Assembly: GCF_009707365.1 (NCBI RefSeq)
Contig: NZ_CP046122.1
Coordinates: 2,790,001 to 2,854,000, forward strand
DNA from: Microlunatus sp. Gsoil 973
GTDB taxonomy: Bacteria; Actinomycetota; Actinomycetes; Propionibacteriales; Propionibacteriaceae
DNA length: 64,000 bases
Direction of reading: 5' to 3'
Under the pieces are notes generated by a model. It did not search any database and had not been told where the DNA came from. It saw nothing but the letters and a program-made list of their open reading frames with translations. Positions 11,691 through 42,365 of the stretch are shown in pieces. The position numbers were made by a program, and so were the translations under genes. The first letter of the stretch is position 1, and each line of letters starts with the position of its first letter.

Positions 11691-11811
11691 CGTGTGACGA
11701 GTGTCAGCGACAAGCCCCGGCTCGCTGGCCGGCAACCCTCCTTCCGCGGTGGGGTGCCCCGGGTGACCACACGGCCGGGCCCAGCACGGGACCCGGCAAG
11801 CGCGGGTCCTC
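11691..11811 (+). promoter_or_regulatory. SAM-IV riboswitch
   Basis: The segment matches the SAM-IV aptamer layout known from actinobacteria: a P1 helix CGTGTG/CACACG (11691-11696 with 11768-11773), the conserved core AGCGACAAGCCCCGGCTCGC then CCGGCAACCCTCC, CGCGGTGGGGTGCCCCGGGTGA, a following hairpin GCCGGG/CCCGGC, and the terminal GGCAAGCGCGGGTCC that forms the outer pseudoknot. S-adenosylmethionine binding is expected to lower expression of the downstream desulfurase-like gene. A plausible upstream -10 is TACAGT (11618-11623). No strong terminator is evident between aptamer and gene, so control could be translational. Confidence 0.92.
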
Positions 11812-40632: not shown

Positions 40633-40676
40633 GGGGCGACGCCCGGACGGACCACGCGCTCCTGCATCAATCGCTC

Positions 40677-40905
40677 GTACGCTCCGCACCACTTCCTCGT
40701 ACGCGCACCACACCGCGGTCCCGCACTACTTCTTCCTACGCGCCGCACCACCTCTTCCTACGCGCCGCACCACTTCCTCGTACGCGCACCACTTTTCTCG
40801 TACGCGCGCACCATTTCTTCGTACGCGCACCACGACTGCCTGGTACGCGCACCACTTCTTCGTACGCGCCGCACCACTTCCTCGTACGCGCACCACATCC
40901 TCGTT
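40677..40905. repeat. Tandem ~21-bp repeats (TACGCGCACCACTTC type)
   Basis: About eleven degenerate units of the form CGTACGCGC(CG)CACCACTTCC occur at roughly 21-bp spacing. The length, a multiple of three, creates long spurious open frames on both strands (Trp-Cys-Ala-Tyr-Glu type repeats). No gene is supported between the DeoR gene and the acVLRF1 leader. Confidence 0.8.
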
Positions 40906-40915
40906 CCCGCAGCAG

Positions 40916-41280
40916 CAACTCGACGGCGCACCCGCTGCAGCCGGTGCGAGCCCGACCAACTGGTGCGAGCCCGAGCAACTGGTGCGGGACCGACCAACTG
41001 GTGCGGGACGGCGGCACGGCGGCTCGAGGGCGCGCCGCCACCACCGGCCCCGTACCGGATCATGCCGACGCCGACCAGGGGCGGCCGATCCCCGAGGGTT
41101 GCCGCACCGGCTCCTCGTTCCCGCTACACCAACTCGACGGCGCACCCGCTGCAGCCGGTGCGACGCCGACCAACTGGTGCGGGGCCGACCAACTGGTGCG
41201 AGCCCGAGCAACTGGTGCGGGGCCGACCAACTGGTGCGGGGCCGACCAACTGGTGCGGGACCGACCAACTGGTGCGGTAC
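40916..41280. repeat. 19-bp GACCAACTGGTGCGG-type repeats with duplicated 34-bp segment
   Basis: Units GGTGCGGGRCCGACCAACT (centre ACCAACTGGT near-palindrome) repeat with an 18-19-bp period: three copies at 40941-41000 and seven at 41156-41280. A 34-bp segment containing CGACGGCGCACCCGCTGCAG is identical at 40916-40949 and 41130-41163, so the whole block was duplicated. It ends about 75 bp before the promoter of the acVLRF1 leader. Confidence 0.85.
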
Positions 41281-41355: not shown

Positions 41356-41385
41356 TTGACCCTCCCGGAGTCACCGACCTACTGT
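41356..41385 (+). promoter_or_regulatory. Promoter of the acVLRF1 leader
   Basis: TTGACC (41356-41361) and TACTGT (41380-41385) with an 18-nt spacer are a good sigma-A-type match. Transcription should begin around 41391-41393, only a few bases before the exceptional Shine-Dalgarno at 41398. Confidence 0.7.
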
Positions 41386-41397
41386 GGGCAACACACG

Positions 41398-41412
41398 GAA
41401 AGGAGGTGGTCC
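41398..41412 (+). promoter_or_regulatory. 15-nt near-complete complement of the 16S rRNA 3' end
   Basis: GAAAGGAGGTGGTCC can pair with the entire 16S tail GGAUCACCUCCUUUC: 14 Watson-Crick pairs and one G-U. It precedes the leader ATG by five bases. Ordinary genes in this window have 4-6 such pairs, so ribosome capture here should be unusually strong. Confidence 0.85.
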
Positions 41413-41417
41413 GAGGA

Positions 41418-41456
41418 ATGAATGACTTACGGACTTGTGAGGTGACGGCTAGCTAG
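41418..41456 (+). CDS. Leader peptide MNDLRTCEVTAS upstream of acVLRF1
   Basis: Thirteen codons including stop, encoding MNDLRTCEVTAS, directly behind the 15-nt Shine-Dalgarno. Codon 4 is TTA, extremely rare in this GC-rich DNA. The 3' end of the ORF lies in a palindrome CGGCTA-GC-TAGCCG (41446-41459) that includes the TAG stop. Short leader, rare codon, strong initiation and a structured RNA before the next gene are the marks of a translational attenuator or arrest peptide. Peptide existence is inferred. Confidence 0.7.
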   Translation: MNDLRTCEVTAS

Positions 41457-41705
41457 CCGCCTTTGGACTTGATTCAGCTGGTCTGGATCACTGGCCCGAG
41501 CGGCCGGCTAATCCAAAGCCAACACCCGAACCCGCGAGCGCCGGACTTGTCCCCCGGCCTTCGGATCTCTCCACCTCCCCGCGAGGCCCGCTCTCCTCAA
41601 GTGAGCGGCTGAGACCGATGCCAGCTCGCGGGTTCGCCCATTCCCGGAAGTATGTGGTCAACAGCCACGCCATCCACGCGCCCACCGCCCGCGGAGAGGA
41701 CTGAC
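41457..41705 (+). promoter_or_regulatory. Structured leader RNA between leader peptide and acVLRF1
   Basis: Two long-range helices are visible: CTTTGGA (41461-41467) with TCCAAAG (41512-41518), and AACCCGCGAGC (41529-41539) with GCTCGCGGGTT (41624-41634), 11 bp perfect. The segment CTCTCCACCTCC (41567-41578) can pair by CCACCTCC with GGAGGTGG of the leader SD (41402-41409), or by CTCTCC with GGAGAG of the acVLRF1 SD (41693-41698). This suggests mutually exclusive folds set by ribosome occupancy of the leader peptide. Confidence 0.6.
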
Positions 41706-42365
41706 GTGAGCGAACCGGCGACGCGCAGGATCGCAATCGCGCGGGAGCGTCTGCCACGGTGGATCACCGGCTTCGCCGAACGACACGGCGCGCCCGAGCC
41801 CGAGGTCACCATCGATGGATCCGTCTGCATCCTGCATGCTCCCGATCGCGCGACGGCTCGCATCGCCGTACCGTTCGGCCCGCTGGTCACCGGCGGTCGG
41901 GACGATCGGTCGGTGATCGAAGGACTTGTTGATCATGTTCTGACCGACCGGCGGGTCGGTGCGCTGTTGGTCCGGCGCGGCGGCTTCGCCGTCGGGGTCT
42001 TCGACGGTACGCGACTGGTCGACTCCAAGGTCGGCTCGTCCTATGTGCAGAGCCGGACCAAGGCCGGCGGCTGGTCCCAGCAGCGGTACGCCCGGCGTCG
42101 CGGCAACCAAGCGCGCCAGCTGTACGACCGGGCCGCGGATGCGGCCGCCTCGGTACTCCTGCCGGTCGCTGATGATCTTGAGGCCGTCGCTCGCGGAGGC
42201 GACCGGGCGGGCGTCGACGCCGTCCTGGACGACCCGCGGTTCCGGGAGATCACAAAGCTCGTGCTGCCGCGGATCTACCCCACCGAGGATCCCAGACTCC
42301 GTGTCCTGGAAGCGTTTCCGGAAGCGTACCTGGCAATCACCATCGAGCTGAACGAACTGGCCTGA
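41706..42365 (+). CDS. acVLRF1-family peptidyl-tRNA hydrolase (Vms1-like ribosome rescue factor)
   Basis: 219 residues, GTG start after GGAGAGGA. Actinobacterial Vms1-like release factor 1: residues 116-135 contain TKAGGWSQQRYARRRGNQ, the eRF1-like catalytic loop, in which the Gln of GGWSQQ corresponds to the Vms1 catalytic Gln; the core fold VGALLVRRGGFAVGVFDG precedes it and the C-terminal VLEAFPEAYLAITIELNE closes it. The family is held to cleave peptidyl-tRNA on stalled or split ribosomes in quality control. Its elaborate translation-sensing leader agrees with that job. Confidence 0.9.
   Translation: MSEPATRRIAIARERLPRWITGFAERHGAPEPEVTIDGSVCILHAPDRATARIAVPFGPLVTGGRDDRSVIEGLVDHVLTDRRVGALLVRRGGFAVGVFDGTRLVDSKVGSSYVQSRTKAGGWSQQRYARRRGNQARQLYDRAADAAASVLLPVADDLEAVARGGDRAGVDAVLDDPRFREITKLVLPRIYPTEDPRLRVLEAFPEAYLAITIELNELA

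Follow-up and report, generated by a model that had tools for sequence, protein, structure and literature searches.

A Microlunatus RNA of the Ms_IGR-5 family carries a mini-ORF that appears to be selected for where translation would end

The Ms_IGR-5 family and the RNA of the window

Ms_IGR-5 is a catalogued family of actinobacterial small RNAs (sRNAs). In Streptomyces avermitilis, an RNA of the MS_IGR-5 type is found among 139 sRNA transcription units (PMC8780764), and Ms_IGR-5 has been catalogued in S. lividans with RNA-seq support (PMC8079986). Ribosome footprints were reported on the homologues of M. abscessus and M. smegmatis by authors who caution that noncoding RNAs, too, can yield footprints (PMC4974804), and the M. 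smegmatis RNA ncMSMEG15794c overlaps IGR-5 (PMC10454040). The available portions of these four papers treat Ms_IGR-5 as an sRNA and leave its conserved open reading frame (ORF) unmentioned, and they report discrete small-RNA expression for relatives of the window organism only. In the openly accessible literature, which does not extend to the original M. smegmatis description, neither a function of Ms_IGR-5 nor a recognisable description of the conserved ORF was found. PMC5521070, a paper on peptide-coding sRNAs, contains no 'IGR', CC2171, Caulobacter or 'Mycobacteri-'.

The window, the whole 64,000-nucleotide stretch of Microlunatus sp. Gsoil 973 DNA that was analysed, contains one member of this family. 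The match covers the complete RF02471 model, and the alignment shows that the window RNA and RF02471 share the 5' end, a P1b-type hairpin and the 3' hairpin. The features of the locus are as follows.

41356–41385, + strand: promoter, with the −35 box TTGACC (41356–41361), an 18-nt spacer and the −10 box TACTGT (41380–41385), read from the sequence
41391–41596, + strand: Ms_IGR-5 RNA (RF02471; cmscan 69.9 bits, E 2.1e-13, gathering score 45)
41392–41395, + strand: 5' strand of P1a, CACA, with its partner TGTG at 41436–41439; covarying family helix
41397–41412, + strand: extended Shine-Dalgarno (SD) sequence GGAAAGGAGGTGGTCC, whose 16 nt can all pair with the 16S 3' tail
41408–41412, + strand: 5' strand of P1b, GGTCC, with its partner GGACT at 41431–41435; minimum-energy fold
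41418–41456, + strand: mini-ORF from ATG 41418 to TAG 41456, predicted product MNDLRTCEVTAS; conservation of frame and stop
41439–41444, + strand: second SD-like motif, GAGGTG, 9 nt 5' of the stop codon (8 nt in frame-shifted loci)
41441–41450, + strand: 5' strand of P3 (GGTG, GGCT), with its partner at 41517–41526 (AGCC, CACC); minimum-energy fold, and the family helix covaries
41510–41514, + strand: AATCC segment directly 5' of the P3 3' strand; conserved by eye in alignments A1 and A2
41527–41636, + strand: 3' hairpin (stem 41527–41539/41624–41636), a presumed terminator or processing hairpin; minimum-energy fold
41706–42365, + strand: acVLRF1 gene (PF18859, 152 bits), about 70 nt past the 3' hairpin

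The promoter boxes TTGACC-N18-TACTGT are present where the preliminary description had placed them; a generic sigma-70 scan did not include 41356–41385 among its predictions. In a set of 115 actinobacterial loci, up to 93 have TAnnnT beginning 20 or 21 nt 5' of AAGGAGG, and up to 73 have TTG at −43/−44. Because the boxes keep their spacing to the SD sequence in most of these loci, transcription is predicted to start at the first bases of the RNA, 5' of the ORF. A start 3' of the leader ORF, which the preliminary description had named as evidence against its attenuator, is thus not what the spacing predicts.

All 16 nt of the SD sequence can pair with GGATCACCTCCTTTCT, which we take to be the 3' end of 16S rRNA and which occurs once in the source genome; two of the pairs are G-U. 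The SD sequence noted earlier is therefore real and is longer than the 15 nt first given. The sequence AAGGAGGTGRTCC has one exact copy in the 64 kb, and the 12 further matches listed each contain two mismatches. The 12-residue leader ORF of the preliminary description is likewise present, and its frame is selected across the family.

Elsewhere in the window, a SAM-IV riboswitch occupies 11693–11808 (+ strand, 108.1 bits). The region 5' of the RNA (40674–41277) contains imperfect tandem repeats, with a 63-nt unit in 3.6 copies (40675–40896) and a 19-nt unit in 6.4 copies (41157–41277) and 3.3 copies (40943–41005).

Distribution, reading frame and helices of the family

RF02471 matches with E ≤ 0.001 occur in 56 of 296 genomes of the phylum (32 over the cut-off) and in 79 of 117 genomes of the order (78 over the cut-off); one of the 79, in genome G333, is weak and partial. 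A pattern scan of named genomes, whose pattern itself requires the SD sequence and GAGGTG, returned at least 119 stretches (L121–L239), with chance matches estimated by hand at about 60. The matches listed include actinobacteria from Streptomyces through Acidimicrobiia. Among them, the same layout is also seen in metagenome-assembled genomes (MAGs) labelled Acidobacteria, Nitrospinae, Nitrospirae, Deltaproteobacteria, Krumholzibacteriia, Zixibacteria, Sumerlaeota and Spirochaetia, bin labels that can err. An AT-rich Zixibacteria locus (L191) exceeds the RF02471 gathering score with 55.9 bits. Pattern matches that lack a short ORF (for example, L122, L128, L133, L151, L168, L186 and L214) lie mostly in coding sequence and were taken as chance. 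The family membership of the SAR86 loci L136 and L137 and of the Planctomycetes loci L130 and L197 is uncertain.

A covariance model, R1, was built from 59 anchored sequences with the window outside the training set. R1 differs from RF02471 in that it adds helix P3 and detects members beyond Actinobacteria. It matches the window at 41392–41526 with 84.3 bits. In the phylum, R1 matches 94 of 246 genomes and 72 of 170 genera; in the acidobacterial phylum of a Bryobacterales genome, it matches 33 of 149, that genome itself not being counted. These genome counts are lower bounds, because R1 misses G423, the centre genome of the acidobacterial sample, whose locus L174 reaches 28.1 bits. Three matches among 148 genomes come from the phylum of the deltaproteobacterial locus, one of them in the genome in which the RNA was first seen there. 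The sole match among 249 Pseudomonadota genomes (L284) looks like chance. Each positive genome of the 246- and 149-genome samples contains one match, with the exception of G103, which has matches on two contigs.

The SD sequence is followed by GAGGTG in 232 of 239 loci (233 occurrences), and the stop is the sixth codon counted from GAG in 216 of the 233. Removal of 11 occurrences without a stop within eight codons left 222, and removal of duplicates left 218 sequences, which contain 214 distinct 123-nt cores. Between the SD sequence and GAGGTG, stop codons number 2 in the ORF frame versus 129 and 288 in the other frames (217 distinct sequences). At SD distance, 194 of 218 sequences have ATG, GTG or TTG in frame with the ORF, versus 7 for each of the other two frames. 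The ORF has 10–16 codons across the family and ends with TAG (143 of the 218), TGA (45) or TAA (30). Counts across the family are not independent, because the sequences are related by descent. Seven of the 20 acidobacterial loci (L269, L273, L275, L276, L277, L279 and L280) fell outside the motif search; by eye, they have an SD sequence with one extra base and an ORF that ends alike.

The same pattern was found in additional loci. Of the 94 R1 positives in the phylum, 44 had already been collected, and 40 of the other 50 were added, the ten omitted ones including the four weakest. Two of the added loci (L299 and L300) repeat R1 training sequences, which leaves 38 new loci. Thirty of these stop at codon six of the frame set by GAG, and L310 has an equivalent ORF with the motif GAGGTA, as judged by eye. 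The remaining seven (L297, L305, L307, L319, L325, L328 and L333) resemble L046 in that the frame in which the motif is read is a different one: an SD-proximal start codon is in frame with a stop 8 nt after (N)AGGTG, and the encoded peptide is different. The motif is TAGGTG in L307 and CAGGTG in L328. In all 38 new loci, an ORF ends 8–9 nt past the (G)AGGTG motif. Near-cognate codons (ATT, ATA or ATC) begin the ORFs of L297, L307 and L328, which makes these weaker calls, and the same holds for the near-cognate starts of some other loci, many of them outside Actinomycetes. At 12 loci from several actinobacterial lineages (L028, L030, L031, L035, L037, L038, L041, L043, L044, L047, L048 and L049), near-cognate starts alone (CTG, ATT, ATC or ACG) stand, as we read them, behind a very strong SD sequence.

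Judged by these comparisons, the mini-ORF is under selection, and the window ORF is predicted to be translated. The place of termination is kept while frame and peptide vary, because seven of the 38 new loci use the other frame with the same end. It is the position of termination that looks conserved, not the peptide. Conservation of the leader, which the preliminary description had proposed to check, thus extends to the reading frame and to the helices and not to the peptide, which varies in sequence and in frame.

The RNA (41391–41645) folds with −109.3 kcal/mol (z −3.27), and none of 200 shuffled sequences folds as low; together with helices that covary in the family, this bears out the structured leader described earlier. 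The SD core sits between P1a and P1b, and the mini-ORF spans both 3' strands of P1 as well as the P3 5' strand. The minimum-energy fold of the window lacks P1a; in this fold, 41397–41403 pairs with 41638–41644 instead. Across the 218 sequences, P1a is paired in 94% of cells versus 74% with shuffled partners, a comparison that favours the observed value because the best of three offsets was picked for the true partner and not re-picked in the shuffles. The second P1a pair is AT in 159 sequences, CG in 33 and GC in 21. Family support for P1b is weaker (67.9% of cells paired in alignment A3).

P3 of the window pairs GGTG with CACC and GGCT with AGCC, with two mismatched positions in between. In a count that demands exact CACC, nine or more P3 pairs form in 155 of the 218 sequences; the figure drops to about 71 of 218 when partners are swapped and to 18 of 208 in a control taken downstream. 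Alignment A3 was fitted to the structure of the model with rows of our choice; its 55 sequences comprise 40 actinobacterial loci (two of them training repeats), L001 of the window and 14 of the 24 loci L261–L284 (12 of the 20 acidobacterial loci plus L282 and L283). In A3, 84.4% of cells are paired versus 67.8% in shuffles, and the covariation score is 0.401 versus 0.133 in shuffles and at most 0.059 in slid versions. Two-sided changes are seen at six of nine P3 pairs and three of four P1a pairs. By this alignment, two helices, P1a and P3, covary in the family. In alignments A1 and A2, the AATCC segment is conserved and has no obvious partner to pair with.

In the minimum-energy fold, to which this comparison of helices is confined, the ORF overlaps P1 and P3. 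The 3' strand of P3 runs to 41526 and the 3' hairpin follows from 41527 without overlap, so no classical pair of mutually exclusive terminator and antiterminator helices is seen there. The earlier proposal that translation of the leader peptide switches RNA folding is retained insofar as a translating ribosome would have to open the fold.

Neighbouring genes and a possible function

The gene behind the RNA had been named acVLRF1, an assignment that its PF18859 match upholds (gathering score 27.1). acVLRF1 has peptidyl-tRNA hydrolase activity, which is predicted for the protein encoded at 41706–42365. The name acVLRF1 was not found in the openly accessible literature searched. At 221 oriented loci, most with flanks of about 1.5 kb or more, acVLRF1 comes next after the RNA in five, all from the family of the window. 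The downstream genes otherwise differ and include a convergent pdxH in 28 of the 221 loci (our row count) and, elsewhere, others named by our own reading. In two Bryobacterales MAGs (L174 and L200), the RNA lies 5' of a gene whose translation resembles ribosomal protein L31.

Among the 117 genomes of the order, 76 contain both the RNA and acVLRF1, three the RNA alone, three acVLRF1 alone and 35 neither; the two features adjoin in five of the 76. A strong acVLRF1 match (>120 bits) is found in six of the 246 phylum genomes, four of which are among the 94 with the RNA. Any PF18859 match is found in 56 phylum genomes, most of them with weak matches (<75 bits) that lie mostly in longer frames; 40 of the 56 have the RNA versus about 21 expected, and the window's is the one adjacent case. 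Co-occurrence in the phylum somewhat favours a link. It is confounded by descent, because the listed family relatives that have neither feature have small genomes, and by these weak matches. At L082, about 270 nt past the SD sequence, acVLRF1 has no obvious ATG, GTG or TTG at the expected start; an ATC follows the SD-like GGAGAGG there, and the start codon is unclear.

The preliminary description had proposed that slow translation or arrest in the leader peptide turns on acVLRF1. As acVLRF1 follows the RNA in five of 221 loci, all five from one family, an acVLRF1 attenuator is not supported as a general mechanism, and attenuation of this gene was rejected as a general rule, also in view of the 4 of 94 RNA genomes with a strong match. 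Neither the control of acVLRF1 by the leader nor the expected retention of the leader upstream of acVLRF1 genes agrees with an adjacency of 5 in 76. Peptide-specific arrest is unlikely because the peptide and even the frame vary: no conserved arrest peptide or regulatory codons are present, and GAGGTG is read in different frames. On our reading, this leader does not belong to acVLRF1. It usually appears to be a gene of its own and not a switch for an adjoining ribosome-rescue enzyme. In most of the 115 actinobacterial loci a promoter directly adjoins the RNA, and 35 of 38 non-actinobacterial loci have a hairpin plus T-run no more than 240 nt past the stop, by a loose definition that 15 of 35 control stretches also satisfy.

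Our reading is that of a stand-alone RNA that would be occupied by a ribosome. The anatomy, the covariation, the selected ORF and the conserved termination point, all established by comparison, are its starting points. The ORF begins within the loop of P1, and its stop lies 8–9 nt past the second SD-like motif, GAGGUG, where the bases form P3 with the strand just 5' of the 3' hairpin. From GAGGUG to the codon in the P site at the stop, the distance is 6 nt (5 nt in the other frame), similar to that between an SD sequence and its start codon. A 30S subunit would dock very tightly through pairing of the SD sequence with the 16S tail, and docking would open P1 and P3 and free the P3 3' strand, the anti-SD-like CAGnCACC. 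The ribosome would then translate the mini-ORF and terminate at a point where GAGGUG is spaced from the P site as an SD sequence normally is, and the motif may retain it at the stop. Two states, ribosome-occupied and empty, would result, and the occupied state could serve either to dock a ribosome or to report on the supply of available ribosomes. Both the parked ribosome and the two-state behaviour are what we infer from this geometry. The ribosome footprints on the M. abscessus and M. smegmatis homologues, the sRNA transcription unit of S. avermitilis, the RNA-seq support in S. lividans and the varied downstream genes fit this reading; the lack of P1a in the fold of the window and the caution of the footprint authors count against it. 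In the lineage of the window, read-through transcription may reach acVLRF1, the gene immediately downstream. Overall, we give an even chance to the reading that this is a conserved structured RNA, normally transcribed on its own and organised around a single translation event, with the ribosome held at the stop. A broader version is more tentative and in our view rather doubtful: Ms_IGR-5 would be one branch of a widespread RNA class, perhaps linked to CC2171, that is not noncoding but acts as a one-ribosome dock, in which the minimal ORF would move the loaded ribosome over a set physical distance to the SD-like site, and that senses or buffers free ribosomes independently of the peptide. The class proposed in that version spans Actinomycetota, Acidobacteriota and scattered other phyla.

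Two alternatives involve acVLRF1. The RNA may have been co-opted in one lineage as a leader in which ribosome occupancy sets read-through into acVLRF1. Read-through of this kind is possible in the window lineage, where acVLRF1 starts soon after the 3' hairpin in five genomes of one family and where the gap at L084 is shorter and, by eye, too small for a separate promoter; the co-occurrence in order and phylum points in the same direction. As an account of the RNA it is nevertheless quite improbable, given the rarity of adjacency, the confounding by descent, the weakness of most phylum matches and a similar 3' hairpin, recognised by eye, in related genomes with and without an adjoining acVLRF1. 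Very short, strongly initiated ORFs are also prone to peptidyl-tRNA drop-off, the minigene effect. The mini-ORF could thus generate peptidyl-tRNA or stalled ribosomes that are cleared by a hydrolase such as acVLRF1, an idea in keeping with the strong SD sequence, the short ORF and the acVLRF1 neighbour in the family of the window. It is barely credible, as 90 of the 94 RNA genomes of the phylum sample lack a strong acVLRF1 match.

The remaining alternatives place the function in the RNA strand or in the peptide. An antisense-type sRNA could target further mRNAs, its CACC strand acting on SD sequences, for instance, and translation of the mini-ORF would then control only the stability or exposure of that strand. 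The sRNA transcription unit in Streptomyces (PMC8780764) and the conserved AATCC and CAGnCACC segments are consistent with this view. So is the hairpin plus T-run that follows the RNA at 35 of the 38 non-actinobacterial loci (15 of 35 controls). The conserved CACC is accounted for by P3 pairing, however, and we consider an antisense role unlikely. A functional peptide is less probable still, to the point of being highly unlikely. Most loci have the ORF, and its product generally ends in E-V-x-x-x, but GAGGTG is nearly fixed at the nucleotide level, the N-terminus varies, and the seven frame-shifted new loci and L046 encode other peptides of the GG or GGG types. A conserved peptide was rejected in view of the frame switching and the N-terminal variability.

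If the ribosome-occupied RNA is the correct reading, an sRNA family catalogued as 'noncoding' is translated, and what has been selected in it is the site at which a ribosome stops. Extended SD pairing, the retention of ribosomes after termination and the sensing of free ribosomes could then be studied in a clean natural system, and the function of an orphan RNA family would become directly testable in Streptomyces.

Comparison with known small RNAs and leaders

CC2171, an sRNA of Caulobacter, resembles Ms_IGR-5 in that it has an extended SD sequence (GAAAGGAGGTGATCC) at its 5' end, a small ORF next and a 3' hairpin. The CC2171 model (RF01867, cut-off 75) scores 17.8 bits on the window and weakly matches the Krumholzibacteriia locus L147 (28.5 bits, E 5.5e-4). 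In alphaproteobacteria, RF01867 matches 20 of 96 genomes at E ≤ 0.001, five of them over the cut-off. Unlike those of Ms_IGR-5, most alphaproteobacterial ORFs begin with ATG or GTG followed by TCT, have roughly 20–30 codons and, by eye, lack GAGGTG. R1 found no convincing match at the alphaproteobacterial CC2171 loci (best 23.3 bits, L251). A common origin of CC2171 and Ms_IGR-5 is unproven because ORF and P3 differ. At the CC2171 loci L242–L248, an extended SD sequence is followed by a small ORF, often MSHCH..., which suggests that this Rfam 'sRNA' may also be translated.

The leader-peptide attenuators of the trp, erm and tna systems share with the window RNA a short ORF, a strong SD sequence and helices that a translating ribosome opens. 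The family differs from them in that no downstream gene is constant, neither the peptide nor the frame is conserved, and no exclusive terminator/antiterminator pair is visible. Dual-function sRNAs such as SgrS/SgrT resemble Ms_IGR-5 as small RNAs with a small ORF. In contrast to these, what is conserved in Ms_IGR-5 is not the sequence of a peptide but the start, the position of the stop and the helices.
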